Positions 29,538 to 45,047 of a DNA stretch of 64,000 nucleotides are shown one piece after another (within the stretch, counting starts at the first letter, position 1; each line of letters starts with the position of its first letter). Source of the DNA: Armatimonadota bacterium (lineage in GTDB: Bacteria > Armatimonadota > Fimbriimonadia > Fimbriimonadales > Fimbriimonadaceae); NCBI GenBank assembly GCA_018268315.1, contig JAFDWU010000001.1:163280-227279 (forward strand), given 5' to 3'. The notes below the pieces were generated by a model. It was not told where the DNA came from. It made no database searches and saw nothing but the letters and a program-made list of their open reading frames with translations. Both the position numbers and the translations under genes were made by a program.

Positions 29538-29576
29538 GTTGGCAAAGCCCACGTTGGCTTTGCCAACGTTCGTTTT
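29538..29576 (+). terminator. rho-independent terminator after HPPD
   Basis: GTTGGCAAAGCC and GGCTTTGCCAAC form a perfect 12-bp stem around a 6-base loop, followed by GTTCGTTTT. It lies 14 bases after the HPPD stop. Confidence 0.85.
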
Positions 29577-29754
29577 GGGTTGTTGATACTTTCCAAAACT
29601 GTTGCGATCTCACTATCCGGTAGACATAATGGTATATGCCTTCGCAATCAAAGGCCATGCTCATCGAGGATCAGCAACAAACTAGTTCCAGGTTTGCGAC
29701 CCCCACACACACTATTGAGGGCCGGTTGCCGACGCGATTACCGAAGGTGCAAGC

Positions 29755-31731
29755 TTGATTGAGCAACCGGAAGTTGTGGTCGAGGTCGGCCCTGACGTGC
29801 TAATGAGCAGCGCGAAATGCGATGCGCTCCAAGCGCTAGAGGAACTTATTTGGAATTCATTGGACGCAGATTCAACAAGGGTCCAGATAAGTTTTATTCG
29901 AAACGAACTCGAGTCAGTCACGACCCTAATAGTCAAGGACAATGGATCCGGATTTGAAGACAAGGCGAAGGGAATATTTGGTGCATTCGGTGACTCGCGC
30001 AAGAAACTACGATCCGAGACAGTCGGAGGCAGAATCCAGCACGGTAAGGAAGGCAAGGGGCGATATAAGGCTCTCTCACTCGGTGCGATTGCCGAGTGGG
30101 TAAGCATTGCAAACGAATTTGACGGGAGTCAGCGCAAGTGCTCCATAACAGTTACAGAGAGTTCACCAAACAAGTTCCGGCCTGTTGAGGAGCTTACAAA
30201 GACAACCGATGCGACAGGAGTCACCGTCTCAATTCGAGATGCAAATGATGAAGCAACGAAGCTTGCCGATAGTAATCTTGTTGACGAGCTCGCGCTGAGG
30301 TTTGCGCCATATTTATTCGCCTACCCGATGGTACAGATTTGGGTTGAGGATGAGAGGGTTGACCCTGAGAAGTATCTCGTGGAAAGGCACGAAACAAAGC
30401 TACACGCAAGTGCACTAGACACCTCTTGGGACGCCAATCTTCTTGTCTGCATTTGGAAATTCGGCGACCGAGAGGGTAACCCACTGAAGCGATTCTACTT
30501 CTGCACGGGTGAAGGGTTCGCGGTAGAGGACTATCCAAGTTACGTTCAAAGGCTGGGAATCTCATTCACTGCTTACATTAGAAGCGCCTTCTTTGACTTC
30601 CAGTCCTCAACGGGCTATTCCGGAATGGGACTTTCCGACCCGGTAGCGAGACAGCTGCTCGATGCAGCCAGAGAAACCGTAACCGAAATAAATCGCAACA
30701 GACTGGCGGAGTCAGCGAGAACATTTATTGATGACCTCAAGACCCAAGACCTCTACCCGTTCCAGATGGACGCGCAGGGCGTTGCTGAAGAACTAGAACG
30801 GAAAGTATTTGCAGTGGCAGCCGAGCAGCTTTTCACCCTTGATCCAAGCATCGCCAAGCTCCCAGCAAAAGAACGCAAGAGGCAGATGAAGGCTCTCCAA
30901 CTGGCAATTTCGTCGAACGAAGAAACGATCCAGTTCATCCTCCAGGAGGTTATGGACCTTAATGAGACGACCAGAAGGGAGCTATTCACCCTTCTAAAGC
31001 GCGTTTCATTGGAGAAGGTTATCTCCATTGTTCACACAGTTGTTGGTCGCCTTGACTTTCTTTCAGCCCTTGAACAGCTTCTCTTCAGCGAAAGCAAGAT
31101 CAAGGAACGAAAGCAGCTACATCCTTTTCTGGCTCAGCACATCTGGCTTTTCGGAGAGCAATTCCATCTGGCAACATCTGATAGCAGTCTGAAAAGCGTT
31201 CTCATAAAACACCGATCCGAGCTTGGGCTTGAGGAACCTGCTTTCGAAGAAGGGGCAGACTATTCCCGCCTGAACATAATTCCTGACCTAGTTCTTTCCA
31301 AGCAAGTTATGCTGCGTGAAGGCTACTTTGATCACTTAGTGGTGGAGCTCAAGGCACCCGGCACACTAGGAGAGAAGGAGTTCGCTCAGATTAAGAAATA
31401 TGCTCGTGTCGTCGGTGGCGACCCCATGTTTGACAAAGAGAGAACCAACTGGACGTTCGTGTTGATCAACAATGACGTTGATGAAGAAATGTACAAAGAG
31501 GCCTGCCAAAGAGGGAGACCAAGGGGCCTCCTGATAGACCAGGACAACTATCAAGTGTGGATCAAGCGGTGGTCAGAAGTGATCCAGGACGCAAAGGGAC
31601 GCCACGAATTCCTTAAGAAGCAACTAGACCTACAGATTGTCAACGACCAGAGCGGTTTGACATACCTGATGGAGAGTTTTCGCCAGTGGATGCCCGAATC
31701 AATTATTGAGCGCGCCGAGGGCCGAGAGTGA
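29755..31731 (+). CDS. GHKL ATPase fused to Shedu-like PD-(D/E)xK nuclease domain
   Basis: 658 residues. The N-terminal part is a GHKL ATP-binding fold: N-box ELIWNSLDAD (Glu30, Asn34, Asp37), DNGSGF (Asp62, Gly64, Gly66) and a Gly-rich lid KEGKGRYKALSLG (98-110). The C-terminal part (about 450-610) resembles the Shedu/DUF4263 nuclease: HPFLAQHIWLFGEQ, then Asp511 in IPDLVL, Glu531 and Lys533 in VVELKAPG, and Gln545 in QIKKYA. This fits a Mg-dependent DNA nuclease gated by ATP binding, as in anti-phage proteins. No helicase or methylase is adjacent. Domain assignment is by motif; function is inference. Confidence 0.7.
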   Translation: MIEQPEVVVEVGPDVLMSSAKCDALQALEELIWNSLDADSTRVQISFIRNELESVTTLIVKDNGSGFEDKAKGIFGAFGDSRKKLRSETVGGRIQHGKEGKGRYKALSLGAIAEWVSIANEFDGSQRKCSITVTESSPNKFRPVEELTKTTDATGVTVSIRDANDEATKLADSNLVDELALRFAPYLFAYPMVQIWVEDERVDPEKYLVERHETKLHASALDTSWDANLLVCIWKFGDREGNPLKRFYFCTGEGFAVEDYPSYVQRLGISFTAYIRSAFFDFQSSTGYSGMGLSDPVARQLLDAARETVTEINRNRLAESARTFIDDLKTQDLYPFQMDAQGVAEELERKVFAVAAEQLFTLDPSIAKLPAKERKRQMKALQLAISSNEETIQFILQEVMDLNETTRRELFTLLKRVSLEKVISIVHTVVGRLDFLSALEQLLFSESKIKERKQLHPFLAQHIWLFGEQFHLATSDSSLKSVLIKHRSELGLEEPAFEEGADYSRLNIIPDLVLSKQVMLREGYFDHLVVELKAPGTLGEKEFAQIKKYARVVGGDPMFDKERTNWTFVLINNDVDEEMYKEACQRGRPRGLLIDQDNYQVWIKRWSEVIQDAKGRHEFLKKQLDLQIVNDQSGLTYLMESFRQWMPESIIERAEGRE

Positions 31732-31809: not shown

Positions 31810-32181
31810 ATGGCAGTTGCAAGTTTCGGTAACGTCAGCATTGAAGCTGTCGGATTCGATCCCTACCCGTCGGCCGCAATCCCGAAATTGAAGGGATATT
31901 CCAACCAAACCCTGATTTGGGAACTTCCGTTCGAGAGGAATGACATGCTGAGGGCCTGGCTGGTATTCAAGTCTTTCTTCGATATGGCTACTCAAGCGAA
32001 TGAGGTCCAAGGTAAAGCAAAGCAAGTGGCCTGGGTCGCCGATTCTCTCTCCTCAATGTACAGTTGGTTTTTTCAGTACCAGCAGGAGTTGAAGGAGCAG
32101 AACGCTTCAGCCGAGGAACAAAATGGCATCACTACGGTCTTGAACGATCTCACGAAAATGAAGTCGATGCTTGGCCTCTAA
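31810..32181 (+). CDS. small protein of unknown function in the island
   Basis: 123 residues, cytoplasmic, with a Trp- and Gln-rich helical middle (AWLVFKSFFDMATQANEVQGKAKQ) and a polar helix. No family recognised. AGG directly abuts the ATG, so ribosome-site spacing is poor and the start is uncertain. It follows the GHKL-nuclease gene by 78 bases on the same strand and may be its partner. Confidence 0.5.
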   Translation: MAVASFGNVSIEAVGFDPYPSAAIPKLKGYSNQTLIWELPFERNDMLRAWLVFKSFFDMATQANEVQGKAKQVAWVADSLSSMYSWFFQYQQELKEQNASAEEQNGITTVLNDLTKMKSMLGL

Positions 32182-32375
32182 TGGCGGCAAAAGACCATCC
32201 CACTGCCTACTGCCTGGAACTACGATTCCCGCAAGTGACCACTTGTACCTTTGCGGGAAGTGGGATTTGAAAGTGGCCGTTAGGAATAAGCGTGGTCCCG
32301 CACCCTAGATTTCCAGCAGGTCCGAGCCCTGGCATTTCCCTCTAAGTAGCAGACAAATTGGTTAAGGGATGTACT

Positions 32376-33062
32376 GTGCATAATGTTGGCATGGACTTGC
32401 CGCCAGCTCTCGAGCTGATAAAGGACCTTGGTAGCCCGCTGATCGCGGCCTCGGTGGTCTTGTTCGTTCAGCACCTGCAAAGAAGCAATGAGCGGTTTAA
32501 GCAACTCGCAGAGTCGCGGCAGGCTAGATTACGTGAGCGCCGGGATGCTGTGCATACAATAATCGGCGAGATATATAAATGTCAGTTCCTCAGTCTTGAA
32601 GCAGCCGATCATCAGTCGAACCTGGATAGCAGGAGCGAGTGGCTTGAAATGGGCAGCTTCCCTGACCCCGATTGGGGAGAGTTCAAGGCTGATGAACTCA
32701 GGGCGGAGCAACGCCATCTTCGCCTTCAACGTGACGAGAAGATCAAGAGGATCGAGCAATCGGTACTTTCCTGCATGATCCTCGCCGAACAGGCAGGGTT
32801 ACCCCAGTCTGAGTTGATAGATACACTCGCGGATTGGGGACCGAAGATCATCGCGGCGCCTGCGCACGGGCGGTGGTCTAACTCAAAGTACCCGGATGCG
32901 GACGGCATGAAGCGCCTCAATATGGCGTTGGTTGCACATTGCCGCGAACTAGTCAGACAGATCGAGGACGATCACGACAATTTGATCCTGCATGTGGCAC
33001 TTCCGAAAGGCAGCACAAGTTCTACCGAGAAAGCAATGCCACCGATGCGTTCGAGGTCGTGA
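32376..33062 (+). CDS. membrane-anchored helical protein of unknown function
   Basis: 228 residues from GTG 32376, which has AAGGGA about 6 bases upstream; an ATG at 32391 is the alternative. A single hydrophobic helix near the N-terminus (LGSPLIAASVVLFVQHLQ) is followed by a long charged helical region with many Arg, Glu and Gln residues. It looks like a small anchored signalling or effector protein. I recognise no family. It lies after the 123-residue gene in the island. Confidence 0.55.
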   Translation: MHNVGMDLPPALELIKDLGSPLIAASVVLFVQHLQRSNERFKQLAESRQARLRERRDAVHTIIGEIYKCQFLSLEAADHQSNLDSRSEWLEMGSFPDPDWGEFKADELRAEQRHLRLQRDEKIKRIEQSVLSCMILAEQAGLPQSELIDTLADWGPKIIAAPAHGRWSNSKYPDADGMKRLNMALVAHCRELVRQIEDDHDNLILHVALPKGSTSSTEKAMPPMRSRS

Positions 33063-33365: not shown

Positions 33366-33881
33366 TCAAGCCAGACACCGCTGATCGATATTAATCAACC
33401 CCTGAATTTGCGCGTAAAGGTCCGTCTTCGGAATCGTCACCTTACCCAGGCGATGTTCGGCAAGCATGAACTCTGCTAGTACCTCAATCGCCTTCCAATT
33501 GGCATCATCATAAACGAGGGGCATGGCAAGCCCGACTCCAAGACCTAAGAAGAAGTTCGAATTTGAGCACGACTTTGTTGCCTTTAGCTTGGGGTCCTTC
33601 GGGTACAACTGCTCGACATTTAGCAAGTCTCCCCCAGCGTGCGCAAGGGCAAGATCATGCGGGGTATCGCATTTAACGTCGGAGACATAACCCGCTCCGT
33701 CAACGGCCATCAGGGTCGTGAATGGAAGCAGAGTTCGGTCTCCCATCTCGGCTCCGCCCTCAGCCGTCATACTCCCAACACCGAAGCACGTCAGCGTTGC
33801 TTGATGACAAACCATTCCGAGCAGCGCTCCCACGACAATGTGCGCAGCTTCATGGCGCGCTTTGATTTGTTCCTGCGTCAT
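33366..33881 (-). CDS. HEAAH-motif metallopeptidase-like protein
   Basis: 171 residues from ATG 33881. The second residue block contains HEAAHIVVGALLG (His10, Glu11, His14), which matches the zinc-binding HExxH of M41/FtsH-type peptidases. No AAA domain precedes it, so it would be a stand-alone peptidase-like fold. The C-terminus contains another conserved-looking Asp and Glu pair but the third ligand is not clear. It starts 1 base after the stop of the upstream gene on the same strand, so the two are an operon. Confidence 0.5.
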   Translation of the reverse strand: MTQEQIKARHEAAHIVVGALLGMVCHQATLTCFGVGSMTAEGGAEMGDRTLLPFTTLMAVDGAGYVSDVKCDTPHDLALAHAGGDLLNVEQLYPKDPKLKATKSCSNSNFFLGLGVGLAMPLVYDDANWKAIEVLAEFMLAEHRLGKVTIPKTDLYAQIQGLINIDQRCLA

Positions 33882-33882
33882 G

Positions 33883-34635
33883 TCAAGTATTTTGTAACGA
33901 CGGAGAAACATATTCGAGCCAAGCCCTTGCGATTCCGAAAATGATCTCCTTCGACTCGGCGACAGACATGCCAGGGTTTCCGCTCGGAATCTTGTCGATG
34001 TTCGCATGGCGTGCCTCATCACCAGCCAGATAGAAGTTATTAGCAGTCTCAGCAAAGCGGCGCAAGTCGGACACGGACGATAAATTACGCTCCGTAACCC
34101 ACTTGTGGAATGCTTCGACAGTTGCGAACCCACCGCAAATTAACTCATAAATCTTGTACAGCGATGCGTAGTTCTGGCTTTCTTGGCTCAAGTATTCCAA
34201 GAGCTTATGGATGCGCACGTCTTGAGAAGCTGCTCTCATGATCGCTCGTGATGCATGCACGGGTTCAAGAATCTCCTGTCCATCTGCCCCAATGACCGTC
34301 GCCTTAAGGAAAACTTGAACTCCCATTCTCGCTCTAATTTGGCCGAACACAGTCGAGCTCAAATGGCCGTCGACATGCTTCATTCGGACGGAACAAAGGC
34401 CAATCGGTCCCGCATTACAATACAGTGCCGCTACACCGTTCAAAAGAACGAGAAGCTCTCTTGCAGTCTCATACACCTCTCCGGAATCGCGGCAGTCTTG
34501 GAACTCCTTTGCTTGCAAGAACCAATCACCTGATTCATTTTTGAGAAGCAATTCTTGATCAGAAAACATGCCTTGGAGGCATTGCAACGTCAAGCTGTCG
34601 CCAGTCAGTTTGGCGAGCCAAGTAGAATCTGTCAT
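33883..34635 (-). CDS. uncharacterised island protein
   Basis: 250 residues, mostly helical, with no signal peptide or membrane segment. The C-terminal part contains FAETANNFYLAGDEARHA and GIARAWLEYV. The N-terminal part is mixed alpha/beta. I recognise no family, though the C-terminal helix pair is reminiscent of small defence-associated domains. It is the first gene of a two-gene unit with the HEAAH protein and lies about 300 bases from tRNA-fMet. Confidence 0.5.
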   Translation of the reverse strand: MTDSTWLAKLTGDSLTLQCLQGMFSDQELLLKNESGDWFLQAKEFQDCRDSGEVYETARELLVLLNGVAALYCNAGPIGLCSVRMKHVDGHLSSTVFGQIRARMGVQVFLKATVIGADGQEILEPVHASRAIMRAASQDVRIHKLLEYLSQESQNYASLYKIYELICGGFATVEAFHKWVTERNLSSVSDLRRFAETANNFYLAGDEARHANIDKIPSGNPGMSVAESKEIIFGIARAWLEYVSPSLQNT

Positions 34636-34940: not shown

Positions 34941-35017
<77 letters not shown>

Positions 35018-41589: not shown

Positions 41590-41607
41590 TAGGTTTGGGA
41601 CACACGA

Positions 41608-42102
41608 ATGGGCCAGATTAGAATGCGGCTTTCCCTCCTCATTATGGCGACGGCCATTGGCTGCCAAAAGAGTAGCCCTCCTGCCACGTTGCCAGTCGGT
41701 CTTGCGACCGTGAGTGGTGTGAGGCTGCGACTGATGAAATATGGAGCTGGGCTATGGATATTCTTTCAGAACAACGGGCGCCGAACGGTTATGCTAAAGC
41801 GCGAGGGGGATGCCTTTGGCAGGATAACCTTCTTCAGGAGAGACTCGGGAAACTGGAAGAGGGTTGAGGAAGTTGATCCGAATTTACGTTTGACAGACTT
41901 GATGGCGGAGCCAGATTCCAACTGGGTAACGCTCAAAACGCGCGATAAGACCATGTGGATGACAGTGCACAACTACACGGGAAACATCCAGCGCGGTGAT
42001 GACATCCGTGTAGATATGAAGCCAGCAATCTTGCCTCACGGTAAAGAAGGGATGGCTCAGTTTCCGCCTCACGAGGTTAGTTTCGAGTGTATTGTCGAAT
42101 AA
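41608..42102 (+). CDS. cassette gene A: small lipoprotein of unknown function
   Basis: 164 residues from ATG 41608; ATG 41623 gives a tidier lipoprotein signal (MRLSLLIMATAIGC). Cys19 counting from the first start is the lipobox Cys. The mature part is beta-rich and contains Asn/Arg-rich strands (LWIFFQNNGRRTVML). It begins 19 bases after the first ispF-end repeat. No family recognised, and its sequence is unrelated to the following cassettes. Confidence 0.65.
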   Translation: MGQIRMRLSLLIMATAIGCQKSSPPATLPVGLATVSGVRLRLMKYGAGLWIFFQNNGRRTVMLKREGDAFGRITFFRRDSGNWKRVEEVDPNLRLTDLMAEPDSNWVTLKTRDKTMWMTVHNYTGNIQRGDDIRVDMKPAILPHGKEGMAQFPPHEVSFECIVE

Positions 42103-42114
42103 CGGGGCGCAAAT

Positions 42115-42152
42115 GCTTCGCGACGCTGTTACTTCAGAAGTCGTAAACGTCT
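42115..42152 (+). repeat. ispF-end repeat, copy 2
   Basis: GCTTCGCGACGCTGTTACTTCAGAAGTCGTAAACGTCT, split here as GACGCTGTTACTTCAGAAG and TCGTAAACGTCTACACATTT (which runs on to 42160). Read in the ispF frame it gives FATLLLQKS-stop. The bases after the stop also match copy 4. Confidence 0.85.
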
Positions 42153-42163
42153 ACACATTTGCA

Positions 42164-42634
42164 ATGACTGCAATTGCCATTCTCGGGCTCTTGACGGCTG
42201 GGCACCGCGACACGGTGATCCCGATTGAGAAGTGCCTACGCCTTAAGTGCGACGTAATTCAAGACAGGGGCTACTTGAAGTCCTTCGTCATCAATGTGAA
42301 AAACATCTCAAAGCGCACTCTCGTCGCTGCTGATTTGTCGCATGCTGGGGGGCTTTGGATTGAAAAGGTGAGATACGATGATGGGATAGAGCGTAACTAC
42401 GGATTGAACCATCAACTCAAGCTCGGACCTGGGGAATCGATAAGCACGACAATCCTTGCGGGTGGCTTCAGTGACTTTAAGGGTAGTCATCAAACCGTCC
42501 ACTTTGAATACAGTCAGCCAGACGGATACCAAGTACTTGACCCGCACCACGTGAGGCTAAAGGGAAGTCTGATCTCTAAGAAATACAATCTCACCTATAG
42601 CTCGCAAGGTATCCGAGTGAGCACCGTAAAATGA
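42164..42634 (+). CDS. cassette gene B: small exported protein, paralog of cassette D
   Basis: 156 residues from ATG 42164, chosen because the paralog at 43745 cannot extend further upstream. A short hydrophobic N-terminus (MTAIAILGLLTAGHR) suggests a signal peptide. Shared features with the paralog: TVIPIEKCL, NISKRTLV, YGLNH, ES, FKGSH.TVHFEY, QPDGYQ.LDP, HVRLKG, ISKKY.LTY, GIRVSTVK. Beta-sandwich-like. Function unknown. Confidence 0.7.
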   Translation: MTAIAILGLLTAGHRDTVIPIEKCLRLKCDVIQDRGYLKSFVINVKNISKRTLVAADLSHAGGLWIEKVRYDDGIERNYGLNHQLKLGPGESISTTILAGGFSDFKGSHQTVHFEYSQPDGYQVLDPHHVRLKGSLISKKYNLTYSSQGIRVSTVK

Positions 42635-42654
42635 AAATTGCCACCATGTGGCAA

Positions 42655-42695
42655 GCTTCGCGACGGCGTTACTTCAGAAGCAGTCGTAGACGTCT
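42655..42695 (+). repeat. ispF-end repeat, copy 3
   Basis: GACGGCGTTACTTCAGAAG is identical to the core consensus, followed by CAGTCGTAGACGTCT. In the ispF frame it reads SFATALLQKQS-stop, with an in-frame extra Gln codon relative to copy 1. It lies 18 bases after cassette gene B. Confidence 0.85.
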
Positions 42696-42783
42696 GAACA
42701 TACATCGAGTGCGCGATGCAACCAGATTTAACAGGCACGATATTGGCCCGGCTCAGTTGCCCAAAGTGTATGAAGGGAGTTAG

Positions 42784-43626
42784 TTGTATTTCCTGACCAT
42801 CGCTGTACGCTTGCTTCTGGCTAGAGCCGTTTGGCTATTCCATGCAACTGCAAGCCCCGCGGGCTCGATATGGCTCACTGCGAATACAGTCACCGCAAGT
42901 GAAGTTGCACGGGCGGCGAAGATCCCGCTTCCGAATTCTCAAGGATGGCGTGTTGAAAGGATCATTGCGAACAAAGAAGGCTCCCTTATTGCGGTAACGG
43001 GAAGACAAAAGGAAAGGTCCAGCATTTGGTTTGTCAGCCCGGATGGGTTAAGGGTTGTGGGGCGGGCAGATTTCCGCAACCCGATTTCGGATCCAATTTG
43101 GACTGACAAGTTAACCCTGGTGCTGAATCAGAGCGATGTGCATGGGCAATCTGCTGTGGTGCAGGTCAATAGAGGCACGTCGTGTCGGGTCACTTACACC
43201 CCGCTGCTGTCACACCAAGAAGAAACGCTGCATGCAGCTGAGGCAGTGGAGGTTGTGAACCGCCAGAACCTCAAGCAAACGAGGACTCTTCACGCACCGA
43301 GTGGTTTCAGCTCGGATGCATTCGGCAATCACGCAGGAACCCTTCTCGTCTCCCCGAATGGGAGGGTGATTGCAGTAAATGCACAAAGCGGGTTGCCAGG
43401 AGCAGTCTCCCAGGTGCAATTGTTCGTCATTCAGAGAACAGGGCATGGCTGGAACTCAAACAGCCTCGGGCCGCTGCCACACACAGCTTGGCTTGTAATG
43501 GCGGATCGCTTTCTCGCTGCTCTAAGCAATATGGCAGCTGGTGGTACGTGCGTGGTTTACAATCTAGAAACCTTACGGCCGATCGCGGCGTTCGACGCCG
43601 ACGCGGTTGAGCTCGTAAGTAGGTAG
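42784..43626 (+). CDS. cassette gene C: exported protein, propeller-like
   Basis: 280 residues from TTG 42784, preceded by GGGAG. A long hydrophobic N-terminal stretch (ITVRLLLARAVWLF-like) suggests export. The rest is beta-rich with repeated patterns (IAVTGRQKERSSIWFVSPDG and LLVSPNGRVIAVNAQSG) resembling a WD40/TolB-type propeller. No family named. It follows the third ispF-end repeat by 88 bases. Confidence 0.6.
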   Translation: MYFLTIAVRLLLARAVWLFHATASPAGSIWLTANTVTASEVARAAKIPLPNSQGWRVERIIANKEGSLIAVTGRQKERSSIWFVSPDGLRVVGRADFRNPISDPIWTDKLTLVLNQSDVHGQSAVVQVNRGTSCRVTYTPLLSHQEETLHAAEAVEVVNRQNLKQTRTLHAPSGFSSDAFGNHAGTLLVSPNGRVIAVNAQSGLPGAVSQVQLFVIQRTGHGWNSNSLGPLPHTAWLVMADRFLAALSNMAAGGTCVVYNLETLRPIAAFDADAVELVSR

Positions 43627-43698
43627 CGACCCTGTGAGTGCGGAACGAGTAGCATGGAATCTCAGAGTTAGTGAACAGGAGTATCCTCAAAGCTGATT

Positions 43699-43740
43699 GG
43701 CGACGGCGTTGCTTCAGAAGTCGTAAACGTCTACACATTT
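43699..43740 (+). repeat. ispF-end repeat, copy 4
   Basis: GACGGCGTTGCTTCAGAAG then TCGTAAACGTCTACACATTT. In the ispF frame it reads LATALLQKS-stop. One synonymous change (TTA to TTG) separates its core from copy 3. The downstream bases are identical to those after copy 2. Confidence 0.85.
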
Positions 43741-43744
43741 ACTT

Positions 43745-44212
43745 ATGAATGCAATTGCCATTCTCGGACTCCTGACGGCTGTTCACCACGACACGGTGAT
43801 CCCGATTGAGAAGTGTTTGGAGTTTCGGTGCGACCTTTCCCAACGGTTGGGTTTTCTTCAAGAATTCAAAGTAACTGTCAGGAATATTTCAAAGCGCACT
43901 CTTGTCACTGGTGACTTAAGCTTTGGCGGTGGGCTTTGGCTTTATATGGTCCGAGATGATGGCATTGAGACCAATTACGGTCTAAATCACTCGTATAGGC
44001 TCAAGCCAGGAGAATCCCTTAATCGCACGTTCAGCGCTAAATCCTTTAGCAACTTCAAGGGAAGTCACCGCACCGTTCAATTCGAGTACAGGCAACCCGA
44101 CGGCTATCAGGACCTTGATCCAAATCACGTTCGGCTGAAGGGCAAGTTCCTTTCAAAGAAGTACGATCTCACCTACACGTCTCTAGGAATCCGCGTGAGC
44201 ACCGTAAAATGA
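43745..44212 (+). CDS. cassette gene D: paralog of cassette gene B
   Basis: 155 residues, about 60% identical by eye to cassette B, with the same hydrophobic N-terminus (MNAIAILGLLTAVHH), YGLNHSYRLKPGESL, FKGSHRTVQFEYRQPDGYQDLDPNHVRLKG (as shorter blocks) and GIRVSTVK end. No Shine-Dalgarno is evident. An in-frame stop just upstream fixes the start. Copy and gene together resemble copy 2 plus gene B, so this is a duplicated unit. Confidence 0.7.
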   Translation: MNAIAILGLLTAVHHDTVIPIEKCLEFRCDLSQRLGFLQEFKVTVRNISKRTLVTGDLSFGGGLWLYMVRDDGIETNYGLNHSYRLKPGESLNRTFSAKSFSNFKGSHRTVQFEYRQPDGYQDLDPNHVRLKGKFLSKKYDLTYTSLGIRVSTVK

Positions 44213-44248
44213 AATTCATTGTTCAAATTCGATCTTGCTAGGATATCG

Positions 44249-44989
44249 ATGATAGGTTTGCTGGCCGCCCTTGGGATCGCACAGGCAACAACCTTGGTCG
44301 CCGCGCCGCGGCTGATCGACGTCAACGACCAACGCCCGTCGGCTGGTGTTGAGCGCGCCAGATATCTCGAATCTCAGCGGTTACGATTCCTCGAAGCCAT
44401 CCAAGCAAAGTATATTTCAGAGCCTATTGCAGCGCACTCGGACGTCCTGTTTCCGTTCTGCAGATCGGACATGGTGTATGTGCTCGTTGGAGACAGTGAA
44501 GGTGAGAATCGAATACCTTATCAGAGAGCACTTTACTGTTTCAGCTGGAACGGAACGCGCTGCACTAAGAAATTCTGTCTGGAGCTGGTTGAACGTTCTC
44601 GAAGGGGAACAGGAAAGCCTCATGTCAGCATGTTAGATTATTTAGAGCATCCAGCCTTTATCCAAACTTCCACTGTTTTGCTCCCAAAGAAGACCAGTAA
44701 GTCAATTCACTCCGAGTTGGCTCGGCCGTTAGAGCTTATTGAGTATAGTTATTCCGAGGTTCCTGGAATCCTTTGGATTCATAGGATTTTGCCAGAAGAT
44801 TCCTATGGACCGGCCCCATTCTACCAAAGTGCTGACGCCTACGATCTTAAAACGCCTAACGGCAATTACAACCTCTTAAAGCTTATGGCTGTTGAGTACG
44901 GGCTCCCACTCCATAGAACTGAGGTTATGGCCCTGACGGGGCAAGCGGTTTTACCGGGACAGCGACCGCCGGATTCAAGCACGAAGTAA
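44249..44989 (+). CDS. exported protein of unknown function
   Basis: 246 residues from ATG 44249, which has AGGAT about 6 bases upstream; the TTG at 44219 adds 10 residues. A signal peptide (MIGLLAALGIAQATTLVAAP) is followed by a mature part with Cys pairs and Tyr-rich stretches. No family recognised. It follows the paralog B/D gene by 36 bases without an ispF-end repeat in between. Confidence 0.65.
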   Translation: MIGLLAALGIAQATTLVAAPRLIDVNDQRPSAGVERARYLESQRLRFLEAIQAKYISEPIAAHSDVLFPFCRSDMVYVLVGDSEGENRIPYQRALYCFSWNGTRCTKKFCLELVERSRRGTGKPHVSMLDYLEHPAFIQTSTVLLPKKTSKSIHSELARPLELIEYSYSEVPGILWIHRILPEDSYGPAPFYQSADAYDLKTPNGNYNLLKLMAVEYGLPLHRTEVMALTGQAVLPGQRPPDSSTK

Positions 44990-45047
44990 ATCTTGCAGTA
45001 TCTGTGCCGCTAAGTCCACATTAGAAGAGTATGTAGAGCGGTGCTCC

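Follow-up and report, generated by a model that had tools for sequence, protein, structure and literature searches.

A divergent GHKL ATPase-Shedu nuclease of the paraMORC3/VcSduA type, probably a single-gene defence protein, in an Armatimonadota genome

A gene lying between those for HPPD and topA in the 64,000-nucleotide stretch of Armatimonadota DNA analyzed here (the window) encodes a protein that a first-pass annotation, made from the sequence alone, described as an ATPase fused to a Shedu-like nuclease and as a candidate for defence. Two questions are raised by this locus: to which family does the protein belong, and what would it do for the cell that carries it? The fusion of both domains in one protein was confirmed by the reading frame, by a HATPase_c_3 match, by residue conservation and by an AlphaFold2 model (Table 1). 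Its occurrence by chance is excluded by far, because the whole architecture recurs, mostly over the full length, in distant homologues of 20-34% identity from Pseudomonadota, Bacteroidota, Actinomycetota and other groups. The PHROGs v4 family phrog_6203, with no function assigned there, matches residues 26-627 of the window protein (E 4.9e-55), that is a full-length match, and no difference between the two was seen.

Table 1. Positions in the window of the GHKL-nuclease gene, its predicted domains and residues, and the edges of the surrounding stretch
Feature	Position	Strand	Basis
Predicted single-gene system: GHKL ATPase + Shedu-type PD-(D/E)xK nuclease (paraMORC3/VcSduA-like), 658 aa, TTG start	29755..31731	+	ORF list, Pfam, alignment, phrog_6203, AlphaFold2
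Shine-Dalgarno-like GAAGGTG, 5 bases before the TTG of the GHKL-nuclease gene	29743..29749	+	Read from sequence
GHKL ATPase domain (~residues 10-205); motif I E30/N34, motif II D62-x-G64-x-G66, lid G97xxG100xG102R103, G155	29782..30369	+	HATPase_c_3, invariant columns, Hsp90/MORC fold match
S5/transducer-like domain and start of long helix (~residues 206-330)	30370..30744	+	MORC2/MORC3 structure alignment over residues 10-320
Helical middle/clamp region (~residues 331-445)	30745..31089	+	DSSP of AlphaFold2 model
C-terminal PD-(D/E)xK nuclease domain, Shedu type (~residues 446-625)	31090..31629	+	hhalign to SduA_C, HSDR_N_2/SduA_C matches in homologues, model topology
E468, E of the E-D-ExK set, in WLFGEQFH motif	31156..31158	+	Conserved in 39/45 sequences
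D511, predicted metal-binding Asp	31285..31287	+	Invariant in 45 sequences
E531-L-K533, predicted catalytic ExK	31345..31353	+	Invariant in 45 sequences
Q545, conserved Gln in helix after ExK	31387..31389	+	Invariant in 45 sequences
Intrinsic terminator after HPPD, upstream edge of variable stretch	29538..29567	+	12-pair stem
tRNA-Met(CAT)	34941-35017		tRNA call

The N-terminal half is that of a GHKL ATPase. HATPase_c_3 covers residues 26-136 (E 1.4e-12) and is the only significant Pfam match in the window protein itself. Residues E30, N34, D62, G64, G66, G97, G100, G102 and R103 are invariant in 45 diverse homologues; among them are N34, D62 and G66, which the first-pass annotation had named with correct numbering, and residues of a conserved glycine-rich lid, HGKEGKGR (residues 96-103), absent from that annotation. 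E30, likewise missing there, is the probable general base for ATP hydrolysis. The AlphaFold2 model of the full-length protein, built with a 45-sequence alignment, has a mean pLDDT of 86.9 and a pTM of 0.58. Its residues 10-320 match structures of MORC2, MORC3 and the Hsp90 family (Z 17-18 over 250-280 residues, rmsd 6-7), and the ATPase domain alone superposes on MORC/Hsp90-family structures over ~175 residues at 2.6 Å. Structure prediction had been recommended in the first pass, and the model returns a GHKL and S5 fold match for the N-terminal part and a PD-(D/E)xK topology for the C-terminal part. In the latter, a helix (451-460) precedes strands 470-475, 512-516 and 525-532, a second helix (540-555) and strand 564-572. 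D511 stands where the second strand begins, E531 and K533 where the third ends, and Q545 within the second helix; the predicted topology is the arrangement of the PD-(D/E)xK restriction fold. The full-length fold search was uninformative on the C-terminus, because Hsp90, MORC and topoisomerase structures fill its list. A separate model of the nuclease domain alone, folded without an alignment, reached a pLDDT of 43 and was discarded.

The relation of this C-terminal half to the Shedu nucleases is visible only through the profile of the family, and not with the window protein alone. The curated SduA_C profile (PF14082, formerly DUF4263) matched neither the window protein, in Pfam or PADLOC, nor anything else in the source genome. 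As for the homologues, SduA_C matches one of them at 3.3e-4, below the Pfam cut-off, the PADLOC SduA profile matches 5 of 32 (best 9.2e-7), and most match the Pfam family HSDR_N_2, which is another PD-(D/E)xK family. When the nuclease profile was aligned by hhalign with a comparison profile made of eight SduA_C proteins taken from other genomes, the match was scored at 92.7% for the whole family and at 95.3% for the clade of the window protein (E 4e-7 to 2e-8), with D, E-x-K and Q in register, whereas the controls (N-terminal and middle segments, and reversed profiles) gave 0.07-0.14%. The pieces common to both are (N/H)xW(I/L)FG, an Asp, VE(L/I)K-x-P and a Gln. Since the match holds at profile level with these residues in register, the window nuclease is homologous to the Shedu nucleases, yet it lies outside the curated profile, and the Shedu-like assignment made in the first pass is supported in this form. 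The residues given there, D511, E531, K533 and Q545, were numbered correctly, and E531 and K533, whose lack of conservation had been named as one finding that would speak against the assignment, do not vary among the 45 sequences. Shedu SduA itself (PF14082; PDB 8ti8, 8ps4) carries the (N/H)xW(I/L)FG motif, D, E-x-K and Q in register with the window protein, but has other N-terminal domains in place of GHKL and is 17-19% identical to it, the window protein being below the Pfam cut-off.

The fusion, presented as new by the first-pass annotation, has a domain plan described since 2008 as paraMORC3. ParaMORC3 proteins consist of GHKL, S5 and a nuclease with an E-D-ExK motif; they are widespread but sporadic, a subset of them standing alone, and were reported as prevalent in Proteobacteria and Bacteroidetes (Iyer, Abhiman & Aravind 2008; PMC2292703). 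The window protein has in common with them the intact GHKL motifs, the S5 domain that follows and the C-terminal E-D-ExK nuclease (E468, D511, E531, K533), and no difference was found. The same one-gene plan, with GHKL upstream of a DUF4263-type PD-(D/E)xK domain, is that of VcSduA from the WASA lineage of V. cholerae, a GHKL ATPase with a Shedu nuclease that protects against Drexlerviridae in E. coli (Adams 2025; PMC12137116) and protects its own host against vibriophage X29. The mutation E27A, in the ATPase, or K557A, in the nuclease, abolishes the protection in E. coli, growth curves suggested that the phage is restricted directly while the host survives, and the authors classed the protein as type I-D Shedu (PMC12137116). 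VcSduA and the window protein, compared here by architecture and residue roles only, differ in host phylum and in sequence; E27 and K557 of the former correspond in role to E30 and K533 of the latter. Hence the domain plan is known, and the window protein adds a divergent sequence to an established immune family rather than representing a new kind of system.

Taking into account: (i) the presence of both domains; (ii) their conserved active sites; (iii) the family to which they belong, and (iv) a mobile, defence-like context, we propose that the window gene likely encodes a single-gene nuclease of the paraMORC3 or VcSduA kind (type I-D Shedu) with a role against mobile elements, phages being the most likely targets. 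The role of the window gene itself in defence is thus put as probable, while a requirement for the two active sites has been shown in VcSduA. In the model, the window protein would form a GHKL dimer in which the binding of ATP would close the N-terminal gate, so that the S5 domains and the helical clamp would move around DNA or around a structure made by the phage. Closure would in turn reposition the paired C-terminal PD-(D/E)xK domains, and the invading DNA, the presumed target, would be cut in response to a putative trigger of this sort while the host is spared. A distinctly less probable reading, although one still to be weighed, takes the protein for a bacterial relative of the eukaryotic MORC DNA clamps that serves in immunity: ATP-dependent closure of the dimer would trap or compact phage DNA and might sense the topology or the ends of that DNA, and cutting would occur only in the clamped state. 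If true, this would be MORC silencing in a prokaryotic form, with the nuclease built in. With the paraMORC3/VcSduA assignment, the GHKL-Shedu family gains a divergent sequence from a further bacterial group, and phrog_6203 becomes annotatable as a GHKL ATPase with a Shedu-type nuclease.

Many of the homologues sit on mobile elements. They occupy 27 loci in named genomes (Sphingomonadales, Bacteroidota, a Gracilibacterium and a Chloroflexi genome) and are present on 46 plasmids, nearly half of these from Streptomyces and some conjugative or mobilizable. A further 57 loci in viral contigs were found with the family alignment as query; a search of the viral contigs by pattern with the window protein alone gave no match. 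A homologue is present in 11 of 5426 E. coli genomes. One E. coli homologue (WP_021536577.1; locus L041, 12001-13986, NZ_CP080070.1) lies in a P4-like satellite at ssrA, where nothing else is carried as cargo between psu and int, and further P4-like satellites carry a family member as cargo (L042, L050, L064 and L098). L064 and L098 are P4-like elements in viral contigs with members from a much more distant branch, and the L064 member is also located between int and psu. In the Pasteurella phages Pmp14 (L039, 7989-9947) and Pmp3 (L040, 7989-9947) the member lies among tail and baseplate genes; the two phages are unlike each other, and in both it is flanked by hypothetical genes, resembling an inserted cargo slot.

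Residence on plasmids, phages and satellites, together with the GHKL and S5 fold common to MutL, would also suit a MutL-like DNA-repair or recombination enzyme that mobile elements had co-opted to replicate or maintain themselves. This explanation is decidedly improbable: the nuclease is of the PD-(D/E)xK and not of the MutL C-terminal type, the gene is present in few members of any one lineage, and VcSduA, which has the same plan, protects against phages (PMC12137116). Members of the family moreover occupy the psu-int slot of P4, a demonstrated hotspot for antiviral systems in which one defence system takes the place of another (Rousset et al.; PMC9122126). The main text of that paper uses none of the terms GHKL, HATPase, 'ATP-binding protein' and Shedu. 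The 'ATP-binding protein' cargo of the E. coli P4-like satellites is here tied to the GHKL-Shedu family, and the copy in a proven antiviral hotspot would offer a handle on the generality of the mechanism and on its trigger.

Other genes of defence adjoin some of the homologues: Drt2 and an LlaMI restriction-modification pair on a Psychrobacter plasmid, a type ISP restriction-modification gene in Phaeobacter and an abortive-infection gene in Bradyrhizobium. The Psychrobacter and Phaeobacter neighbours are what would be expected if the protein were the nuclease and ATPase part of a restriction-modification system, either BbrUII/HgiDII-like or a paraMORC in a restriction-modification operon, with a methyltransferase marking self DNA. 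The BbrUII/HgiDII enzymes (NF050001) do resemble the window protein in length and in their N-terminal GHKL ATPase, and a weak N-terminal likeness extends to the PADLOC REase_II profile. However, the likeness to BbrUII/HgiDII is confined to residues 28-203 (E 1.4e-12), thus to the ATPase, and reaches 47 bits against an NCBIfam cut-off of 550. The homologues are single genes with no fixed partner, and most of them, those of the E. coli satellites included, stand alone. There is no methyltransferase among the genes flanking the window gene, and the methyltransferase-family matches of the genome are separated from it by 340 kb or more, or belong to different contigs, which counts against a pair of this kind. 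A restriction-modification role is therefore highly improbable.

Among 61 sampled relatives the gene was present in one, the source genome itself, and two further clear cases were found among 291 genomes of the phylum. A tree of 51 members places the window protein on a long branch beside a viral-contig protein (L043; support 99/98), and the two members from the same phylum elsewhere. The scattered distribution fits horizontal transfer. The base composition of the gene (GC 0.50, GC3 0.55) departs from that of the flanking HPPD and topA genes (0.58-0.61, GC3 0.75-0.78). A long branch and a GC content that has not been ameliorated might equally be expected of an inactive remnant carried along by drift, but this is very improbable and the least likely of the explanations considered: the frame is full length without an internal stop, every invariant catalytic residue is kept, a plausible ribosome-binding site precedes the start, and the upstream neighbour is ended by a terminator.

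The gene was placed by the first-pass annotation in an island between the HPPD terminator and the initiator tRNA. The terminator, a strong one, the lower GC and a tRNA-Met at the far end were all found, and orphan genes fill the stretch from the GHKL-nuclease gene to the tRNA-Met. An integrated element was not: no second copy of the 3' end of the tRNA-Met turned up at the opposite edge, and searches against Pfam, NCBIfam, PADLOC and PHROGs gave no integrase-family match for any ORF in between. Hence 'island' is fair in the sense of a variable stretch, and not of a demonstrated integrated element. Within the window, no known defence gene adjoins the GHKL-nuclease gene, and the island shows no mobility gene. 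A similarly arranged relative (G025) likewise has ~5 kb between HPPD and topA, and neither that interval nor the corresponding interval of the other relatives compared gave a convincing match to that of the window; with no convincing counterpart, the spot is variable.

Several small genes accompany the GHKL-nuclease gene in this stretch. Two orphan ORFs of 123 and 234 aa lie directly 3' of it on the + strand (31810-32181 and 32358-33062), with no significant family match. On the - strand, an adjacent orphan pair (33366-34635) consists of a 250-aa protein (34635-33883) and, one base later, a small protein (33881-33366), neither of them with a significant match in Pfam, NCBIfam, PADLOC or PHROGs. 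The small protein begins MTQEQIKARHEAAHIVVGALLGM, and its HEAAH resembles a zinc motif of the M41/FtsH type. A second stretch of low GC (0.51), with several short genes, extends downstream of topA at ~41600-45000.
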